Shown: one piece after another, positions 404-8,633 of the stretch
How the letters are laid out: each line of letters opens with the position of its first letter
How positions within the stretch are numbered: position 1 is the stretch's first letter
NCBI GenBank assembly: GCA_014859375.1
Contig: JACUUH010000014.1
Location: 1-44,272 of the forward strand
Direction of reading: 5' to 3'
DNA from: Gammaproteobacteria bacterium
Lineage (GTDB): Bacteria > Pseudomonadota > Gammaproteobacteria > Nitrosococcales > Methylophagaceae
Length of the DNA stretch: 44,272 bases
The notes under the pieces: generated by a model
What the model saw: only the letters and a program-made list of their open reading frames with translations
Told to the model about the DNA's origin: nothing
Databases searched by the model: none
Program-made: the position numbers and the translations under genes

Positions 404-1372
404 TTATGGAATATAAACACCCCAAGGCATTTCACCAACCGTTATGTCTTTTAGTTTTTCCAAACTCACCGTATCAATTACCGAAACTGAGTTAGAACGA
501 CCATTAGCAACATACAATTTTCTATCATCATGCGTCAGTGCCATATTCCATGGACGTTCACCCACGGCGATAGTTTTAATCACTTTATTCGATGCAGTAT
601 CGATCACATCGACGGTATAGCTTTTACCACCTGAAATATAAACACGACGCCCATCATGAGACACTTTTACCCCATTTGAACGTTCACCAGTTTTGATGGT
701 GGTAGTCAATGACCAGTCTTGTGTATTCCACACTTGTGTTACATCGGCTTTTTCGTTTGCCACATAAAGTGTTTTACCATTAGGCGTGAACCCCATCCCG
801 CGTGGATGACCAGCCGCCGCTAATGTTTTGATAACTTTACGAGCTGCCACATCAATGATATCAATACTGTCAGAGCCTTCCTGGCTGGCCAATACTAATT
901 TACCGTCAGGTGAATAGACACAATGCTCAGGGGCATCACCCGTTGTATCAACACTGGCAACAATCTTGAACGTAGCCACATCAATAAAAGAAACTCGGTT
1001 CATTTCTTCCTGACAGGCGACTAGCTCTTGGCCATCAGGTGATAGCATTACACCTTCTGTACCTTCACCCACATCCAGCTTATCAATGATCGTTCTGGAT
1101 TGTCGTGCCACTCGCACAACTTTGCCACCTTCAGCATCAACCACATACAAAATATTGCCTGATTTATCAGTGACCACAGCGTTGATTTCTTCACCGAGAC
1201 GCCCCTCTTTGGGGATCTGCATGATGACAGAATCAATACTGGTATCGATAACAGAAATTGTGGCATCTTTTTCATTTGGCACATAAGCCAAGGGTGCAGA
1301 TGATGCTGCCAACAGATTTTGCCCTATCATTCCTAAGGTAATGGCTATAGCCAATTTTGTTATTTTATTCAT
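404..1372 (-). CDS. Exported YVTN-type seven-bladed beta-propeller protein, PQQ-catabolism associated
   Basis: A 322-residue protein with a signal peptide (about residues 1-23) followed by seven repeats of the YV-N-x-V-x-V-ID-T type (YVPNEKDATISVIDT near the start, YVANGRSNSVSVIDT near the end). This is the YVTN/NHL propeller fold. It resembles the family found beside PQQ-dependent alcohol dehydrogenases in methylotrophs and Pseudomonas. The biochemical role of that family is not settled; a periplasmic scaffold or assembly factor for the quinoprotein system is the usual guess. It is the last gene of the xox operon, 18 bases after xoxG, and has a good AGGA ribosome site. The family call is firm; the function is not. 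Confidence 0.85.
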   Translation of the reverse strand: MNKITKLAIAITLGMIGQNLLAASSAPLAYVPNEKDATISVIDTSIDSVIMQIPKEGRLGEEINAVVTDKSGNILYVVDAEGGKVVRVARQSRTIIDKLDVGEGTEGVMLSPDGQELVACQEEMNRVSFIDVATFKIVASVDTTGDAPEHCVYSPDGKLVLASQEGSDSIDIIDVAARKVIKTLAAAGHPRGMGFTPNGKTLYVANEKADVTQVWNTQDWSLTTTIKTGERSNGVKVSHDGRRVYISGGKSYTVDVIDTASNKVIKTIAVGERPWNMALTHDDRKLYVANGRSNSVSVIDTVSLEKLKDITVGEMPWGVYIP

Positions 1373-1390
1373 CGTTTTATTCCTAGTTTA

Positions 1391-1909
1391 TTACCAATCG
1401 CGACGTTTGATATCACCTTTGTACTGGGTTCTTAGCCAAGCAATGATTTTCCATAGCTCATCATCTGTTTTGATAATGTCGCCATAAGGTGGCATTGGTC
1501 CAACCACACCTTCCATGCCTTTTCGGTAGTAACCCGCTTTTTGTAAATCATCACTACCCAGCGTAACTAAACGAAACAAGGTGTCATCATCACTGCCATA
1601 GACAAACACTTCATTTGATATAGGTGGGCACATACCACCACCAGCGCCACCACCATGACAACCGTTACAACTGTTACCGAAATACCTATCTTTACCGGCT
1701 GAAATCATTTCTTCATTGTCGGTATACGGATTTTTCAATTCACCTTTGGGTGTTGAAGCCACACGCTCACGCGGACTCATGCCAACCATAGCTGAGCTAT
1801 CGTCAGTTAGGGCTAATGTGCCTTCTGATTCGCCACCTGCAAACCCAGTGATAGATAACATCATTGCCGTTGCAAAACTGGCTGCAATACATACTTGTTT
1901 TATCTTCAT
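1391..1909 (-). CDS. xoxG: Periplasmic cytochrome c, electron acceptor of XoxF (XoxG / cytochrome cL type)
   Basis: A 172-residue exported c-type cytochrome. Residues 1-24 are a signal peptide, and CNGCH at 81-85 is the single haem-binding motif. Met139 in GPMPPYGD is the likely distal haem ligand, and two further Cys features (Cys94 after the glycine run) sit near the haem. Cytochromes of this kind take electrons from the PQQ of methanol dehydrogenase and pass them to the oxidase chain. It is third in the operon after xoxF and xoxJ, the standard neighbourhood for XoxG. GAGGAAG lies just ahead of the ATG. A close alternative would be a PedF-type c550. Assignment to XoxG rests mainly on context. 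Confidence 0.8.
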   Translation of the reverse strand: MKIKQVCIAASFATAMMLSITGFAGGESEGTLALTDDSSAMVGMSPRERVASTPKGELKNPYTDNEEMISAGKDRYFGNSCNGCHGGGAGGGMCPPISNEVFVYGSDDDTLFRLVTLGSDDLQKAGYYRKGMEGVVGPMPPYGDIIKTDDELWKIIAWLRTQYKGDIKRRDW

Positions 1910-1932
1910 TTGACTTCCTCTTTGATTAAATT

Positions 1933-3600
1933 TTATGACTTGATTACTAAATTATTGTTTTGTGGCGCTATCGACAGCTTATTGATATTAAACCGGTGGA
2001 ACATGTGAATAGCATCTTGCGCTTCACGCTGATGAGCAATGTCATAGGCGGTCTGACCTTTCGTATTTTTCAGTTCAGGATCAGCACCTGATTTGATCAA
2101 TAGAGAAATAATATCTGGGTTATTATTTGCCGCGGCGATCATCAATGCAGTGATACCACCATCATTGGTTAGATTTGGGTTCGCACCGTATTGAACTAAG
2201 GTTTGAGCCACAGGTAGTTTGCCAACTTTGGCAGCAATCATCAGAGGTGTATAGTTAGCCTCACCCACAGTTAGATTGGCATCAGCACCACTATCGAGCA
2301 ACGCAACTACGGCTAAGGCTTTGCCATTCTGTACAGCCAAACTGAGGGCTGTACTTTGAGTCAGCTTTTCAATCTTTCCAAAATCAGCACCATAGGTCGA
2401 TAAAGCTCTAATCATCTTTGGTTCATTTAACCAGGCTGCATGCATTGCAGCTGTCCAACCATCACTATCAATTGCATTCGGCTCGGCCTTATTTTTAAGT
2501 AATAATTTGACCAAATCGAGATTTGCACCCTTAACGGCGTTCATTAGTGGTGTTAGTCCATTAGTATCGGGGGTATTTATATCTGCACCACGTTCAATGA
2601 CGTAACTAACACGCGGTAAATCTTTTGCCAGCACGGCATTTAGCAACTCTGCATCTAAAGTGCTTCCGGCCTGTAATGCTGCATCAATCTTATCTGGTAA
2701 TTGATCGTTGTTAGATTGTTTGGGTGCTTGGTATTTGGCTACGACATGCTCATGTTGCTGATATGGACCATGTGAAGGAATATCACCAGATACGATACAG
2801 TTTGAACACGCAACAAGTGGCACGCCATATGACACTAATATTTCCTTGATTTTTTCTTTTTCTTGAACCAGTACTTGATTGAGTTTATCTCGTAATTGGG
2901 TATCAGATTTTTTCAAACCAATTCCCAGCTCAAACTCCATCGGCAATACTGTGTCGTATTGATTAAGTGGATATAAGGTCAACTGTTTTTTATCGCCAGC
3001 GTTGTACCAGCCAGCCAAAGGTCCCCATGCCCCTGCAATATCCAGATCACCGTTGATAACGGCCTCGACTTGCTTGGTAGGTTGCCTTTCCGGTTTTAAA
3101 TCAGCATTGTGACTAATGATATGGAGTCTTAGGTTGTTGCCATTGATGCCGTGTTCCATCAATTCAGTTCTAATGGCTGAATGTTGAAATACCCCAATAG
3201 TCAATTCTTTCAACTCAGGATCAGCAAAAGAACTAAATTTGTATGGACTATCGGCTTTAGTTGCCAGCACAAATGTGCTTCGATATAGCGGTGTGGTCGT
3301 AATCAATCTTTCATTGTCTGCCGACATATCCATCAATATGTCACAGCGGTTATTTTGAAATGTTTGTCGCGTCAGGCCACGCTCAAGATATGGTCTATAG
3401 GCATAAGTGACATGTGTCCCCATCGCTTGTGCCAAGACTTCTGCAATTTTGTTATGAAAGCCTTCACCTTGAGTATTAGATAAAGGCATATTGCCGGGAT
3501 CGGCACATACACGCAGTGCCGGAACATTGTCAGCTGCAAACACAGCGCTACTTATCGCCAGACTAGTGGCCGATAATGTGAGAATTAATTTACTTGCCAT
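1933..3600 (-). CDS. xoxJ: XoxJ-type periplasmic binding protein fused to C-terminal ankyrin repeats
   Basis: Residues 1-22 are a signal peptide. Residues 26-268 are a periplasmic solute-binding-like domain of the quinoprotein-associated MoxJ/XoxJ family, with the start motif RVCADPGNMPLSN and the typical acidic region DILMDMSADNER. After a linker (about 270-310), residues 315-535 form roughly six to seven ankyrin repeats (NGLTPLMNAV, DGWTAAMHAA, NYTPLMIAAK, GITALMIAAA and others). MoxJ/XoxJ proteins are thought to help mature or activate the dehydrogenase. The ankyrin part makes this protein about twice the usual length of about 280. I start at the ATG at 3600, preceded by AGGA; the frame can be extended 11 codons to a TTG without a ribosome site. 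The fusion has no frameshift or stop, so it looks genuine. Confidence 0.85.
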   Translation of the reverse strand: MASKLILTLSATSLAISSAVFAADNVPALRVCADPGNMPLSNTQGEGFHNKIAEVLAQAMGTHVTYAYRPYLERGLTRQTFQNNRCDILMDMSADNERLITTTPLYRSTFVLATKADSPYKFSSFADPELKELTIGVFQHSAIRTELMEHGINGNNLRLHIISHNADLKPERQPTKQVEAVINGDLDIAGAWGPLAGWYNAGDKKQLTLYPLNQYDTVLPMEFELGIGLKKSDTQLRDKLNQVLVQEKEKIKEILVSYGVPLVACSNCIVSGDIPSHGPYQQHEHVVAKYQAPKQSNNDQLPDKIDAALQAGSTLDAELLNAVLAKDLPRVSYVIERGADINTPDTNGLTPLMNAVKGANLDLVKLLLKNKAEPNAIDSDGWTAAMHAAWLNEPKMIRALSTYGADFGKIEKLTQSTALSLAVQNGKALAVVALLDSGADANLTVGEANYTPLMIAAKVGKLPVAQTLVQYGANPNLTNDGGITALMIAAANNNPDIISLLIKSGADPELKNTKGQTAYDIAHQREAQDAIHMFHRFNINKLSIAPQNNNLVIKS

Positions 3601-3642
3601 GATATTTCCTGTTGATACAACGTAAAAAGCCAAAGAGAGAGC

Positions 3643-3700
3643 ACCTGTTACAGGTACCCTCCCTTCGGCAAGTTTTGCTAATTAGATTTGCTTAATCTAA
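3643..3700 (-). promoter_or_regulatory. Hairpins in the xoxF-xoxJ gap, possible attenuator or mRNA processing site
   Basis: The 112-base gap after xoxF holds two small inverted repeats. TTAGATT (3682-3688) pairs with AATCTAA (3694-3700) only 12 bases past the xoxF stop. ACCTG (3643-3647) pairs with CAGGT (3651-3655). Neither has a proper T-run on the minus strand, so full termination is unlikely. They could protect xoxF mRNA ends or lower downstream expression, which would suit the need for more XoxF than XoxJ or XoxG. This is inference from position. Confidence 0.3.
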
Positions 3701-3712
3701 CCATTCTGCAAT

Positions 3713-5623
3713 TTATGGATAAACTCGGAATGCGGTGAACTCACCACCTTGTGGAATAAGATTCAGTTTGGCAGCTTTCGCCATTGCTGTTGCACCGATA
3801 GCACCATATTTGTCAGAGAAATCCAGATCGGCAGTTACTGGCAAACCAGCCCAGCCACCTAAACCACTGAATACACCAACATATTGTTTACCATCAACTT
3901 TCCAGGAAATTGGGTTACCGATAATACCTGAACCCAGTTTGCGTTCCCAAACCACTTTACCTGATTTACGGTCAACCGCACGGAAGTCACCACCCATGCT
4001 ACCGTAGAACACTAAACCACCAGCAGTGTTCAATGTACCACTCCAGTTTTGGTATGAATCAGCAATTTCCCAAAGGGTTTTACCGGTTACAACGTCAAAC
4101 TTTTTCAACTTACCAGAAACACCTGGTTTTTCTTGATACATATAGACGTTAGCAAACACGTAAACCGTACCTTGTTGAGTGTGTGTACGTTCTTGAGGTT
4201 CATCTTCCATACACCAGTTGTTTGTTGGTACATAGAAAATGTTTGGTTCAGATGGATCAACTGATGCTGGTTGCTGATCTTTACCACCTTGTGCAGATGG
4301 GCATGTAGCTACATTACGACCGCGTTCAAATGGTGAGTGTTCTTTCACTTTAAGCGGACGACCTGTTACCAAGTCAACTTTCTCAGCCCAATCAACGGTA
4401 ACGAATTTGTGCGCACGAAGTAGATCACCGTTGGTACGATCCATAACATAAGCAAAGCCATTACGATCAAAGTTAACCAATGCTTTATGCTTTTTACCGT
4501 CAACCACCAGGTTATCGACCAGAATGTTTTCATTTACGCCATCATAGTCCCACTGATCAAATGGCGTTTTCTGATAAGCCCACACTACTTCACCCGTATC
4601 GACTTTACGAGCCATAATAGTCATAGACCATTTGTTATCCCAGTTACCTGAATTGATTTTTGGGTTGTACTCGTTACATTTTTCATGCGTCAGGTTTTCA
4701 CCTTCTTCACCACAACGATACGCTGGTGACCAGTGACCCGGGTTACCAGTACCGGCATAAACAATTTTCAAATCAGGGTCATAAGTAAACCATGCCCATG
4801 GTGCACCACCACCAATTATCCACTCATCACGTGGATAAGTAATCATACCCAAATCATGTCCGTAGGTACCGTAGTGTGGGTTATCTTTATTGGTATCAGG
4901 TGTTAAGCAAACGTCTTTATCAGAACCTGTGCTGTGACACGTCCATACTTCTTTACCTGTTTTAATATCATAAGCAACCATACGACCACGTGCTGCAAAT
5001 TCGTCACCACCAAAACCGGCAATAACCAAGTTTTCAGCGACCATTGCTGGTCCAGTATGTGTTTCACCCTTATCTGGATATGCATGTTTGGTCACCCACA
5101 CTTCTTCACCAGTCGTGGCATCAAGTGCAATCAATAAACCATCTAGTGTATGGAAAATAACTTTACCATCAGCATAGTTCAAACCACGGTTAACCGTGTC
5201 ACAACAGGCGCGCGGTACTGCTGACATATCACGATCGGTTTTTTTCTGATAGTTCCATACCTGTGCAGGTTTATCAGGATTAGATAAATCTAGTGCTTGC
5301 ACAATGTTTGGCCAGGCACTGACAAAATACATCATTGGCTTACCATTATGTTCAACTACTACAGGCTGGCCCTCATGACCACGAAGTGCGCCTGTTGATT
5401 GTGACCATGCCATGTGAAGGTTTTTAACATTTTTTGTATCGATATCTTTCAAAGCACTGTGACGTGTCATTGCCAGGTCACCACCTGGTGCCGCCCACAT
5501 ATCAGGATTTTGGCTACGTTTAATGATCTCATCATTGGCACTTGCCTGACCTGCAAGACCAATCATTGCTACTGTTCCTAGTGCAGCTATGCTGGCTCGC
5601 AAAGTAAATTTGGCTTTTTTCAT
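3713..5623 (-). CDS. xoxF: Lanthanide-dependent PQQ methanol dehydrogenase XoxF
   Basis: A 636-residue periplasmic quinoprotein that oxidises methanol (to formaldehyde or formate) using PQQ and a lanthanide. Signal peptide at about 1-29. The adjacent Cys140-Cys141 pair forms the family's unusual disulfide over PQQ. Likely metal and PQQ contacts are Glu208 (GGDEFAARG), Asn294 (GTGNPGHWSP) and the catalytic Asp359 in WDYDG. Asp361, two residues later, is the hallmark that separates lanthanide XoxF from calcium MxaF, which has Ala there. Tryptophan-docking propeller repeats run throughout. GGGGAG precedes the ATG. It is first in the operon with xoxJ, xoxG and the propeller gene. I do not assign the XoxF clade; a tree would be needed. 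Confidence 0.97.
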   Translation of the reverse strand: MKKAKFTLRASIAALGTVAMIGLAGQASANDEIIKRSQNPDMWAAPGGDLAMTRHSALKDIDTKNVKNLHMAWSQSTGALRGHEGQPVVVEHNGKPMMYFVSAWPNIVQALDLSNPDKPAQVWNYQKKTDRDMSAVPRACCDTVNRGLNYADGKVIFHTLDGLLIALDATTGEEVWVTKHAYPDKGETHTGPAMVAENLVIAGFGGDEFAARGRMVAYDIKTGKEVWTCHSTGSDKDVCLTPDTNKDNPHYGTYGHDLGMITYPRDEWIIGGGAPWAWFTYDPDLKIVYAGTGNPGHWSPAYRCGEEGENLTHEKCNEYNPKINSGNWDNKWSMTIMARKVDTGEVVWAYQKTPFDQWDYDGVNENILVDNLVVDGKKHKALVNFDRNGFAYVMDRTNGDLLRAHKFVTVDWAEKVDLVTGRPLKVKEHSPFERGRNVATCPSAQGGKDQQPASVDPSEPNIFYVPTNNWCMEDEPQERTHTQQGTVYVFANVYMYQEKPGVSGKLKKFDVVTGKTLWEIADSYQNWSGTLNTAGGLVFYGSMGGDFRAVDRKSGKVVWERKLGSGIIGNPISWKVDGKQYVGVFSGLGGWAGLPVTADLDFSDKYGAIGATAMAKAAKLNLIPQGGEFTAFRVYP

Positions 5624-5716
5624 ATTTCTCCCCTTGTTTGTTAGGATTTAAGCCGCTTCACCGTTGTTACGGATAGCGTGTAACAGTTTAAGCCTGACTT
5701 AAAATCATGAAACGAG

Positions 5717-5749
5717 AGGAGTTCCCGAGCTTGAATATGACTGCTTCCC
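5717..5749 (-). promoter_or_regulatory. Candidate regulator site upstream of xoxF
   Basis: The minus strand carries GGAACTCCT (5717-5725), identical to the motif at 159-167, with a related GGGAAGC starting 23 bases further upstream (to 5749). It sits about 93 bases ahead of the xoxF start codon, a suitable place for an activator. The neighbouring LuxR-type response regulator (6650-7294) is the obvious candidate to bind it. No clear sigma-70 hexamers were found between the motif and the gene. Confidence 0.3.
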
Positions 5750-5761
5750 TAAGATTATCGT

Positions 5762-5796
5762 GAAATAAAAAAGGACAGCCCTAGGACTGTCCTTTT
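5762..5796 (-). terminator. Rho-independent terminator after the kinase-regulator-Sel1 operon
   Basis: AAAAGGACAG (5769-5778) pairs over 10 bases with CTGTCCTTTT (5787-5796) around an 8-base loop. On the minus strand it ends in a run of six T followed by ATTT. It lies 25 bases beyond the Sel1-protein stop codon and separates that operon from xoxF, so xoxF needs its own promoter. Confidence 0.85.
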
Positions 5797-5820
5797 ATGT
5801 ATATAAACCAATGGTTTAGA

Positions 5821-6636
5821 TTAGTTGCTTGGGATTGATATTGGCGCACTTGTTTGCCATGAACTGGCGATAGATTTAGCTTTTTTAAGTTGTTCCTCTT
5901 TCATTTCCAATGTTAGTTCTTTTTTGAACTTCTCAGCGGCTGCATGACCATCACGTGTTGCTAGCTCTAATAATGCATAAGCAAGAACAAGGTTTTGTTC
6001 CACTCCAATGCCTTCCTTATACATCATGCCTAAGGTGTATTGTGCTTTATAATGACCTTGTTCTGCTGACAGGCGTGTCCAATATGCCGCTTTTTGTTGA
6101 TCTTTTGGTACACCTTTACCTTCGTAATAAAGCAGCCCTAAAGAAAACTGTGATTTAAAGTGTTTCTGTTTTGCTGCTTTCTCAAACCAATTCGCAGCTT
6201 GCTGGTAATCCTGCTTGACACCCCAGCCCTTTGTATACATATCACCAAGTGCAAACTGTGCTAAGGCAAGGCCCTGTTCAGCCGCTTTAGCATACCAATG
6301 TGCACTTTTTTTTTGCTCTATTTCAACACCTTGACCTTTACTGTACATCACACCCAAATTATATTGCGCATTGACATCGCCCTGATTAGCGGCCTTTTGG
6401 TACCAATTTGCAGCCTGTTTCTGATCACGTTCAACACCTAGGCCATCATCGTATATAACACCCATAAGATATTGTGACATCACATCGCCTTGTTGAGCCA
6501 AAGGTGAAAATTCTGATATGGCTGTTGCATAATCACCGGCTATCATCGCTGTTTTACCTTGCACGAAGTCGGCATTCACTAGGACAGGCATAGACACCAT
6601 TAATAATGCTGCTAATGTTTTTAGTTGTTTTTTCAT
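5821..6636 (-). CDS. Exported Sel1-repeat protein
   Basis: A 271-residue protein with a signal peptide (about 1-22, ending VLVNA). About five Sel1-like repeats (tetratricopeptide-related, 36 residues each, pattern AQYNLGVMYSKGQGV...AANWYQKAA) fill residues 48-230. Sel1 repeats bind other proteins or peptides and have no catalytic residues. The gene follows the response regulator by 13 bases and has a strong AGGAG site. It is therefore the third gene of a kinase-regulator operon, and periplasmic export would let it meet the kinase's sensor domain. Partner and function are unknown; a role as an accessory sensor is inference only. Confidence 0.8.
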   Translation of the reverse strand: MKKQLKTLAALLMVSMPVLVNADFVQGKTAMIAGDYATAISEFSPLAQQGDVMSQYLMGVIYDDGLGVERDQKQAANWYQKAANQGDVNAQYNLGVMYSKGQGVEIEQKKSAHWYAKAAEQGLALAQFALGDMYTKGWGVKQDYQQAANWFEKAAKQKHFKSQFSLGLLYYEGKGVPKDQQKAAYWTRLSAEQGHYKAQYTLGMMYKEGIGVEQNLVLAYALLELATRDGHAAAEKFKKELTLEMKEEQLKKAKSIASSWQTSAPISIPSN

Positions 6637-6649
6637 TATTACTCCTAAT

Positions 6650-7294
6650 TTAATCTTCTATTACACCGTGTCGAATTGCGAGGCGTACCAGCTCAACAGG
6701 ACTGTTTATTTGCAACTTCTGTTTTAATAGTGTTTGATAATTTGCCACTGTTTTTTGACCTATGTTGAGCAATTTTGCTATTTCATCGACCACTTTACCT
6801 TCTGCTAGAAGGCGAAAAATCTCAAACTCTCTTGCTGTCAGCTTTTGTATCGGATTATCGTCACCACTCATAGTGTGTAGTGCAATTTTTTGAGCCATTT
6901 CAGAGCTAAGATAAATTTTGCCTGCATAGACCTGTTTAACTGCGGTAAGTAGATCGCCTGCTTCACCTGACTTGGATACATAGCCTAAAGCTCCGGCAGT
7001 CAAAGCTTGCGTGGAAAATGTGGCATTCTCATACATTGAGAAAATTATGATCTTGGCCTTGGAATAACGTGTTTTAATTCGTCGAAGCGCTTCCAAACCT
7101 CCGATGCCGGGCATAGACATATCCATAACCAAAATTTCGGGTAATATTTCGCCATATAGTTGATAAGCCTGCTCACCACTTTCTGCTTCAGCAACTACCT
7201 GCACCTCGTCGCTCTGATCAAGCAATCGCCTTAAACCAGAGCGAACAACCGCATGATCATCGACCAGCAATACTGTAATTTTTTTATCCATCAT
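6650..7294 (-). CDS. LuxR/NarL-family response regulator
   Basis: A 214-residue two-component regulator. Residues 5-120 form the receiver domain with the acidic pair Asp12-Asp13, the phosphoacceptor Asp58 (LVMDMSMPG) and the conserved Lys in GYVSKSG. Residues 149-212 form the LuxR-type helix-turn-helix DNA-binding domain (LTAREFEIFRLLAEGK). It follows its kinase by 7 bases and has an AAAGGA ribosome site. By analogy with the regulators of methanol dehydrogenases in other methylotrophs, and because xoxF is the next operon, it probably controls xox genes. That target is inferred from location, not seen directly. Confidence 0.9.
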   Translation of the reverse strand: MMDKKITVLLVDDHAVVRSGLRRLLDQSDEVQVVAEAESGEQAYQLYGEILPEILVMDMSMPGIGGLEALRRIKTRYSKAKIIIFSMYENATFSTQALTAGALGYVSKSGEAGDLLTAVKQVYAGKIYLSSEMAQKIALHTMSGDDNPIQKLTAREFEIFRLLAEGKVVDEIAKLLNIGQKTVANYQTLLKQKLQINSPVELVRLAIRHGVIED

Positions 7295-7301
7295 TTTTCC
7301 T

Positions 7302-8633
7302 TTAACAAGGCAGCCTTACCTCTATGCACACACCTTCATTAATCTCAGTCGTGATATGAAAGCTTCCATTTAAACCTTCACAACGTTCTTTCATGCCTAG
7401 CAAACCAAAGCCATTTCCAGATTGAGATAAATCAAACCCAACACCGTCATCTTTGACAGTAAAACTAATTTCATCTATTTCCTGTATCAATGTAATATCG
7501 ACATGCTGCGCATTCGAATGACGGGCAACATTAGTTAGGCATTCTTGAACAATTCTATAAATAGCAATTAGCGGCGAATCGTCTAAATCAACAAATTCAC
7601 CTTGCACATTAAGCTGGCACACCGTCATAGAGTTGCGTAATTGCCATGTATTGACCAATTCGGCAAGTGCCAGCTTAAGTCCTAATTCATCAAGATCAGC
7701 AGGACGTAGTCGTTGCAAAATATTACGTACAATATCAATCATTTGCCTTACAACATCTGAGATAGCTGAACCACTTTCTTGTGCTACTTTAAGATTAGGT
7801 GCCGTTTTAATTGCTGCGGCATCGACATTGATTGCTGTTAAATGCTGACCAATTTCATCATGTAACTCACGTGCGAGACTTTTGCGTTCGTGTTCCTGCA
7901 CATTAATGATTTGCTGGTGTAAACGACGATTCATTTCTACGCTTTTCTGGAGCGTGTCTGCCATTACATTAAACTTATTGCTTATATTGGTTAATTCAGG
8001 CAGAGAAAACTGGGGCAGCCTTAATGAAAATTTGCCCGATTCTATTTCTGATAATGCATCGATAATTCGGTCTATAGGTTTCAAGGCCTGATTTACTGCT
8101 AAATATATCAATACATTAGCGGTAATAATGAAAAAAATCAGTAAGACCAACATGGTTTTAGTTTCTTCCCAGACTTCGTCAATCTCATTTAACGGATCAG
8201 GTGTCACAACTAATTCACCTATCATTTGACCAGCGTTAAATACTTGGCGTCGTGTCGGCTGCATTTGTTCAGTTACCGAGTCCATAGCCCTTACAAACCA
8301 GTCAGGTGCGATGGTTTCATGTTGTGCGTAGTGATTACTGTCTATTAAATCACCAAACACGTTGAAGAACTCTATTTTTAAATGTCGAACATTCTGTAAT
8401 TTTTTTAAATTGAAATTAGATCGTTTGGCACCATCAGAAGGTCGACCCCAAGCGGCTCCATAGCTATATAGCAATATCTCAGCATCCAACATGTGAACAG
8501 CCAACACTGCTGTAGACGCAATTTCCGCTTGCACATTTTGGCGTGCGTTATGAATGGTCGATATCGCCCCCATTGCTATAATCACTAACAATAAAAGCGT
8601 TATGATAAGGTTGAGTCGGAGTTTTAGGTTCAT
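7302..8633 (-). CDS. Membrane sensor histidine kinase (NarX/UhpB-like, HisKA_3)
   Basis: A 443-residue inner-membrane kinase. The first membrane segment is about residues 7-27, the periplasmic sensor region about 28-157, the second membrane segment about 160-180, and a HAMP linker about 178-230. The phosphoacceptor is His258 in ARELHDEIGQHL, the HisKA_3 signature that pairs with LuxR-type regulators. A C-terminal ATPase domain follows with the N-box (CLTNVARHSNA) and G-boxes (DGVGF, GFGLLGMKER). The periplasmic part matches no sensor domain I recognise. No strong ribosome site is seen ahead of the ATG. It heads the operon with the regulator and Sel1 genes. The signal is unknown; methanol, its oxidation products or lanthanides are guesses from the neighbours. 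Confidence 0.9.
   Translation of the reverse strand: MNLKLRLNLIITLLLLVIIAMGAISTIHNARQNVQAEIASTAVLAVHMLDAEILLYSYGAAWGRPSDGAKRSNFNLKKLQNVRHLKIEFFNVFGDLIDSNHYAQHETIAPDWFVRAMDSVTEQMQPTRRQVFNAGQMIGELVVTPDPLNEIDEVWEETKTMLVLLIFFIITANVLIYLAVNQALKPIDRIIDALSEIESGKFSLRLPQFSLPELTNISNKFNVMADTLQKSVEMNRRLHQQIINVQEHERKSLARELHDEIGQHLTAINVDAAAIKTAPNLKVAQESGSAISDVVRQMIDIVRNILQRLRPADLDELGLKLALAELVNTWQLRNSMTVCQLNVQGEFVDLDDSPLIAIYRIVQECLTNVARHSNAQHVDITLIQEIDEISFTVKDDGVGFDLSQSGNGFGLLGMKERCEGLNGSFHITTEINEGVCIEVRLPC

Follow-up and report, generated by a model that had tools for sequence, protein, structure and literature searches.

A XoxJ–ankyrin fusion protein that accompanies XoxF1-clade dehydrogenases in two classes of Pseudomonadota

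The stretch of DNA analyzed here (the window; 44,272 nucleotides of contig JACUUH010000014.1, assembly GCA_014859375.1) encodes a XoxJ-type protein that continues, through a cysteine-containing hinge and a variable linker, into a domain of seven predicted ankyrin repeats. Fusions of this type (XoxJ-Ank) were detected at 23 loci in 23 genomes from two classes of Pseudomonadota, the class of genome G751 being different from that of the window. In every one of them (23 of 23) a xoxF gene of the XoxF1 clade is located immediately upstream, while ankyrin repeats occurred in none of the 24 distinct other XoxF–XoxJ loci opened; the loci in this contrast were picked for long frames, high XoxF identity or contrast and not at random, and near-copies are present on both sides (eight of one family among the 23, two G006 rows among the 24). 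XoxJ-Ank is probably a purpose-built assembly partner and not an oddity of one genome. The reading we favor, with more confidence than doubt, is that of a maturation factor dedicated to XoxF1, in which the J domain would sit on (apo-)XoxF1 and the ankyrin domain would serve as a second docking site.

The xoxJ-ank gene (1933..3600, minus strand) encodes 555 amino acids and a stop in one frame, from the ATG at 3600 to the last codon at 1936, followed by the stop at 1933-1935; the plus-strand reading of the same segment contains many stops. The first-pass annotation had proposed an unbroken XoxJ–ankyrin frame behind a signal peptide. The frame was confirmed, on the minus strand and with no stop between the domains, and the predicted signal peptide was recognized by eye and by hydropathy as a hydrophobic N-terminal stretch (residues 1-22, MASKLILTLSATSLAISSAVFA; 3535..3600). 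It is followed on the same strand by the XoxJ domain (residues 29-264; 2809..3516), the hinge motif (residues 265-280, C265-x-x-C268 ... G-D-I-P-S-H-G-P-Y280; 2761..2808), the variable linker (residues 281-300; 2701..2760), and a first helix with seven ankyrin repeats (residues 301-536; 1993..2700), the last delimited by Pfam, AlphaFold2 and fold search.

The assignment of the N-terminal part to the MoxJ/XoxJ type was borne out by model TIGR03871, which scored 241.6 bits against a cut-off of 212.15 over residues 28-263, while the MoxJ equivalog model TIGR03870 remained below its cut-off (121.8 versus 258.1 bits). The profile match of the J domain is to the SBP_bac_3 fold, and the Pfam model Ank_2 reached 125.5 bits (cut-off 27.3) on the C-terminal part. 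The haem-binding motif CxxCH is absent from the 555 residues, unlike the XoxGJ or cytochrome cGJ fusion.

An AlphaFold2 model, for which the input was an alignment of 22 fusion proteins, shows a two-lobed binding-protein domain, a poorly ordered linker, a first helix and seven ankyrin helix pairs, at the upper end of the six to seven repeats expected earlier. The mean pLDDT is 85.6, falling below 50 at protein residues 282-291 (model residues 260-269), and the pTM is 0.52, so that the mutual placement of the J and ankyrin domains is unsure. The J part superimposes on XoxJ (6ONP) with a Z of 25.1 and 1.8 A over 210 residues (106.7 bits in sequence) and on MxaJ (5SV6) with a Z of 25.5 and 2.0 A; its Foldseek list also includes the MxaJ of the cryo-EM MxaF/MxaJ complex 9ISM. 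The ankyrin part resembles many ankyrin solenoids (best Z 28.9, for a predicted model). A conserved concave binding face (paratope) was not supported, as conservation of the concave face of the repeats did not differ significantly from that of the outer face (0.478 versus 0.466, p = 0.32). W382, W390 and Y450 of this part are fairly conserved, although these aromatics were chosen post hoc. Among 10 representatives, mean pairwise identity is lower in the ankyrin part (39%) than in the J domain (47%).

An assembly artefact was excluded, because the same fusion is present in JARGFJ010000027.1 at 95% identity, in another genome, and in NVVW01000025.1 at 63%. Carriers among the relatives include Gammaproteobacteria bacterium C14-03 and Methylophaga sp. 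NORP53, which makes a methylotroph similar to Methylophaga the likely host. The host assembly itself comprises 2.35 Mb and is 96.7% complete. A recent ankyrin insertion, as judged by base composition, was likewise rejected, since the J and ankyrin parts are alike in GC (0.423 and 0.435) and GC3 (0.378 and 0.353). The 23 loci in 23 genomes dispose of the idea of a local oddity.

In the fusions, 264-317 residues follow the J domain and the adjoining XoxF is 56-100% identical to that of the window. In unfused XoxJ proteins, -7 to 34 residues follow, or 131-136 with a haem motif, and the XoxF beside them, where in reach, shows 40-49% identity to the window XoxF. The statement that the usual XoxJ is about half as long agrees with the 27 unfused haem-free rows (three of them duplicates), 17 of which measure 269-303 amino acids versus 555 for XoxJ-Ank; the other 10 are longer frames with 2-34 residues after the J domain. 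The long frames of G267, G724 and G746 were dismissed as fusions, having 4-9 residues behind the J domain, and the stop flagged in G008 proved to be the natural stop of a frame of 551 amino acids.

Fusions were sought as TIGR03871 matches above cut-off combined with open-frame length. The long frames confirmed as fusions numbered 7 among 48 matches (57 family genomes), 4 among 41 (369 class genomes), 2 among 41 (53 genomes of the G174 family) and 3 among 46 (398 phylum genomes), the window gene being counted in the family, class and phylum sets, and G174 in the class and G174-family sets. XoxJ matches with frames below 480 amino acids, which are too short for a J domain plus an ankyrin domain of this kind, were mostly left unopened. 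XoxF searches at E <= 1e-180 gave matches in 8 of 63 genomes of the window's own order and in 4 of 369 of its class. The orders to which G849 and G751 belong yielded 11 of 250 and 1 of 292 genomes, respectively, and the G751 class yielded 1 of 84 (G751 itself again). All distinct loci from these searches were opened, and G443 was added from the TIGR03871 search of the G174 family. The duplicates L009-L011 enter neither the J tree nor the count of 24, L046 was left out before A1 owing to an ambiguous base, and L101, with a cut XoxF, was left out of the XoxF counts. On plasmids, a tblastn search produced 187 records matching part of the fusion query, none covering 80% of it, and none of the 158 plasmid records that matched XoxF at E <= 1e-100 exceeded 60% identity.

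The adjoining xoxF gene (3713..5623, minus strand) belongs to the XoxF1 clade. Among PDB chains, the window XoxF scored highest with 7O6Z (813.8 bits), followed by 4MAE (557.7) and other chains below 490; 7O6Z is thus its closest solved structure, and the sole XoxF1 structure found in the PDB scan. It represents the Nd-containing XoxF1 of Methylacidimicrobium thermophilum AP8, in which an Asp beside the ligand Glu, in place of Gly, was called diagnostic for XoxF1 in the cited passages of PMC8546591; its lanthanide ligands are given in PMC11845868. The corresponding residues of the window protein are D207 for the diagnostic Asp, and E208, N294, D359 and D361 for the ligands Glu, Asn, Asp and Asp. 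Among the 22 readable fusion-linked XoxF sequences, the diagnostic position is occupied by Asp in 12, by Asn in nine (G007 and eight of family f12) and by Ala in one (G1232), and the fusion therefore extends beyond the Asp-bearing XoxF1 enzymes.

The plotting of the two-domain architecture on a XoxF tree, proposed in the first-pass annotation, was carried out by maximum likelihood with 51 rows (G443, whose XoxF is cut by the contig start, was omitted, and L010 and L011 were kept as partial duplicates). The fusion goes with one clade, supported at 100/100, whose 24 rows comprise the 22 fusion-linked XoxF sequences, 7O6Z and the truncated gene of G056; none of the other 27 rows fell inside it, and 7O6Z is sister to the fusion-linked XoxF. 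The G056 locus is the only XoxF1-type locus without a fusion, and its xoxF frame ends after 526 amino acids. Behind the truncated xoxF1 at this locus (L113:5891-7471, G056:C49) comes a TonB-receptor gene on the opposite strand, and neither xoxJ nor xoxG was seen there, while the genes for the kinase, the regulator and the Sel1-repeat protein are still in place upstream. An ankyrin part encoded by a separate, unrelated gene, named beforehand as an arrangement adverse to the fusion, was seen at none of the XoxF1 loci opened.

In a tree of 53 J domains, the 23 fused ones lie on one side of a branch with moderate support (91/86), recovered in 92% of the bootstrap trees. As the pairing, the XoxF clade and the grouping of the J domains coincide, a single fusion inherited thereafter together with XoxF1 would be the simplest account. 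Separate gains of ankyrin repeats by different XoxJ proteins are not supported, given the moderately supported grouping of the fused J domains and the hinge cysteines that they share. The XoxF and J trees disagree in their inner branching, for example in the place of G1232 and G751, and some exchange of partners among XoxF1 clusters may therefore have occurred. Four of the fusion genomes (G006, G007, G018 and G443) also hold other XoxF–XoxJ pairs. In G006, two such loci on different contigs (L089 and L090; G006:C17 and G006:C25) are near-identical and represent either a recent duplication or a duplicate in the assembly.

The hinge between the two domains follows the consensus C-x-x-C-x-x-x-G-D-[LI]-P-S-H-G-x-Y. 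Both cysteines were present in all 23 fusions, versus no hinge CxxC in the 33 other J rows (30 distinct), with the tail motif scored in part by pattern match, which may miss divergent forms; the SHG-Y part is common but not invariant. A clade-specific element is also present in the enzyme itself. Directly behind the metal ligand N294, the window XoxF carries a loop (residues 304-328; 4640..4714, minus strand) with cysteines C304 and C316, which were found in all 22 readable fusion-linked XoxF sequences and in G056, versus none of 24 others. In 7O6Z the loop is present, with Thr and Ala in place of the two cysteines. It is conceivable, but doubtful, that XoxJ-Ank is a thiol-handling chaperone, whose hinge CxxC would make or exchange a disulfide with C304/C316 and thereby lock or open the active site during PQQ and metal entry, the ankyrin domain gripping the loop. 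If so, this would be a route of quinoprotein dehydrogenase maturation absent from other XoxF and MxaF enzymes. Two further cysteine pairs occur in the fusion-linked XoxF proteins: C229/C239 is present in 18 of the 22 sequences, and a pair at positions 453/465, where the window protein has Ala and Val, in 12. In each case both cysteines are present or both absent, and the XoxF1 cysteine pairs may form extra disulfides.

The location of the fusion in a xox cluster was as first described. In order of transcription, the genes encode a sensor histidine kinase (7302..8633), a response regulator (6650..7294), a Sel1-repeat protein with a signal-like start (5821..6636), XoxF, XoxJ-Ank, a c-type cytochrome (1391..1909) and a YVTN beta-propeller protein (404..1372), all on the minus strand. 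The gaps measure 112 bp between xoxF and xoxJ-ank, 23 bp between xoxJ-ank and the cytochrome gene, and 18 bp between the latter and the propeller gene. The cytochrome, a putative XoxG, was assigned by position; Pfam Cytochrome_CBB3 is above cut-off and the MoxG model TIGR03872 below. The propeller protein resembles TIGR03866, below the cut-off of that model. The Sel1 gene upstream of xoxF is kept in all seven own-genus fusion loci, and the kinase and regulator genes belong to the same own-genus neighborhood. A XoxG-like gene lies behind the fusion in 22 of the 23 loci, the exception (G121) being situated at a contig end; in G174, G443 and G1232 the two are separated by 3-4 kb that contain other genes. 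Of XoxF, XoxG and the propeller, named in the first-pass annotation as proteins that the fusion may hold in one complex, the propeller is the least probable partner of the ankyrin domain. Its sequence diverges strongly at four of the fusion loci (25-32% identity), its gene precedes xoxF in G1154, and no propeller gene was found in the G356 stretch or in G121, whose contig ends there.

Other genes were noted around the XoxF1 clusters of other families. TonB-dependent receptor genes, with a possible role in metal-chelate uptake, occur nearby at L079:117-2618 and L116:10158-12920, and genes for ABC-type substrate-binding proteins (TIGR03863) lie inside the clusters at L081:7803-9005, above cut-off, and at L100:9404-10609, just below it.

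The nearest known counterparts of the J part are XoxJ of Methylorubrum extorquens AM1 (6ONP) and MxaJ (5SV6, and 9ISM with MxaF), which it resembles in sequence, fold and the position of its gene beside xoxF and a xoxG-like gene. XoxJ-Ank differs from this type in its hinge CxxC and its ankyrin repeats, both absent from all 33 unfused XoxJ rows examined, and these proteins are half its length. A XoxJ module joined to a second component of the system is already known, since in the Methylacidiphilum protein described in the cited passages of PMC8498564 and PMC8170126 as cytochrome cGJ or XoxGJ it is fused to the cytochrome XoxG, in contrast to the ankyrin domain, without CxxCH, in XoxJ-Ank. No description of the ankyrin fusion was found in the literature searched, most subscription papers lying outside its scope, and the first-pass annotation likewise named no description of such a complex; the passages found that name xoxF together with ankyrin concern other ankyrin proteins. 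XoxJ1 of Methylocella silvestris (Msil_3148) and the xoxJ product of strain AP8 (MTHMO_v1_1701, between xoxF1, 1700, and xoxG, 1702) are numbered beside a XoxF1 gene and xoxG, and are described in the cited passages just as a solute-binding protein or xoxJ (PMC9291206, PMC7907005). A secreted ankyrin protein supporting an enzyme has a precedent in AnkB of Pseudomonas aeruginosa, an ankyrin-like protein of the periplasm on which optimal KatB activity depends (PMC3091734). The likeness is by description, AnkB serving another enzyme, and the cited passages mention no J domain.

A dedicated maturation factor would extend what is reported for XoxJ itself. In M. extorquens AM1, losing xoxJ has the same effect on growth on methanol with La as losing xoxF1 and xoxF2, according to the text cited from PMC7391723, and XoxJ and MxaJ may bind the partly folded apo-enzyme and help with the insertion of PQQ and metal (PMC12997753, in the part cited). 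By homology, the J domain of XoxJ-Ank would dock on XoxF1, probably in its immature form, and assist PQQ and metal insertion as proposed for those proteins. The ankyrin domain, on a flexible linker behind the conserved CxxC hinge, would offer a second docking surface, and we infer that its partner is XoxF1 or the XoxF1–XoxG pair, for which this surface would be specific. XoxF1 would thereby depend for its maturation on a helper of its own instead of the XoxJ that belongs to another XoxF of that cell, a specificity that would be useful in the four genomes that hold other XoxF–XoxJ pairs. XoxF1 may also differ in metal loading, since lanthanides lower XoxF1 and its XoxJ in M. silvestris, and the XoxF1 of Ca. 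Methylomirabilis oxyfera was reported with Ca (both in the cited passages of PMC9291206); Nd was reported in the Methylacidimicrobium enzyme (PMC8546591). The absence of significant conservation on the concave face, the lower conservation of the ankyrin part and the uncertain placement of the two domains speak against a maturation factor.

An ankyrin domain that acts as an electron-transfer scaffold, holding XoxG near XoxF1 while the J domain sits on the enzyme, is possible but distinctly less probable. Such a scaffold would be analogous to the Methylacidiphilum XoxG–XoxJ fusion and to haem-extended XoxJ proteins with a single CxxCH, which occur in the window's own genus (L041, L093, L094, L098 and L110), and it would suit the XoxG-like gene behind nearly every fusion. 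The distance of that gene in G174, G443 and G1232 is less easily accommodated, and the haem extension itself fell below the cut-offs of the cytochrome models in L041 and gave no cytochrome match in L094. We regard it as unlikely that the repeats are a general stability or anti-aggregation module, or that their ligand is the Sel1-repeat protein or some other protein of the periplasm without a link to methanol oxidation. Ankyrin repeats often act as binding modules, their concave face is not significantly conserved here, and the conserved Sel1 gene upstream in the genus, together with a Sel1–ankyrin fusion in L039, would fit such a role. Against it, the fusion pairs with XoxF1 over two classes, while a same-strand Sel1 gene near the fusion was seen only in the window's own genus, G056 retains Sel1 without the fusion, and the weak Sel1-like gene of G174 is on the other strand.

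It is highly improbable that the J domain functions as a sensor or as a solute-binding protein of the transporter type, its bound state being relayed by the ankyrin domain to a regulator, even though its SBP_bac_3 fold, the kinase and regulator genes (upstream in the own genus, and present in the G121, G356 and G751 stretches) and the TIGR03863 substrate-binding genes of the G174 and G751 clusters could be taken in that sense. No ABC permease was recognized among the window genes from 404 to 8633, the stretches of families f119, f181 and f12 showed no window-like kinase or regulator, and known XoxJ is tied to enzyme function in the cited parts of PMC7391723 and PMC12997753. The maturation factor is retained as the preferred reading. 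XoxF1 enzymes form a little-studied clade of lanthanide-type methanol dehydrogenases whose metal is debated, and a clade-specific, separable helper domain, together with a clade-specific cysteine loop, would provide a handle on a maturation route of its own. It also suggests that xoxJ-ank should be included when XoxF1 is expressed heterologously.

Ankyrin proteins were also encountered near other PQQ dehydrogenases. In six of seven ankyrin-only loci of the family (L034-L038 and L040), a secreted-looking protein of 212-285 amino acids is encoded less than 1 kb from a PQQ dehydrogenase with 27-29% identity to XoxF; the seven represent part of the high-scoring matches, and the remaining one (L039) occupies a contig of 3.2 kb. 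Between the ankyrin and dehydrogenase genes lies one of about 200 codons, which in the three loci where it was read encodes a cytochrome with two haem motifs. Conversely, a PQQ dehydrogenase was found in none of 10 other ankyrin loci of the family for which a stretch was fetched, most of these proteins being cytoplasmic as judged by their start (11 control loci were taken, L133 being dropped for lack of an ankyrin frame, and the L127 and L135 stretches span only about 7 kb). On plasmids of Alloyangia pacifica and Ideonella dechloratans (L125 and L126), selected by rank and taxon from 65 matching records, genes annotated for an ankyrin protein adjoin those for a cytochrome c and a XoxF-like PQQ protein, on mixed strands. 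This suggests that ankyrin proteins may serve several PQQ enzymes; such separate ankyrin genes beside a PQQ dehydrogenase and a cytochrome c would, if anything, link ankyrin to the enzyme class.

Two further architectures were observed. On the contig that carries L039 (462-2513; G031:C81), Sel1 repeats and many ankyrin repeats are combined in one secreted-looking chain of 683 amino acids. The haem-extended XoxJ-type proteins of the window's own genome and genus (L041:144-1385 in G000:C85, and the four other loci named above) measure 413-430 amino acids, of which 131-136 form the extension with one CxxCH, and the neighboring XoxF, where in reach, shows 45-47% identity to that of the window. A XoxJ-type protein with a CxxCH extension is also encoded outside the family, at L106.
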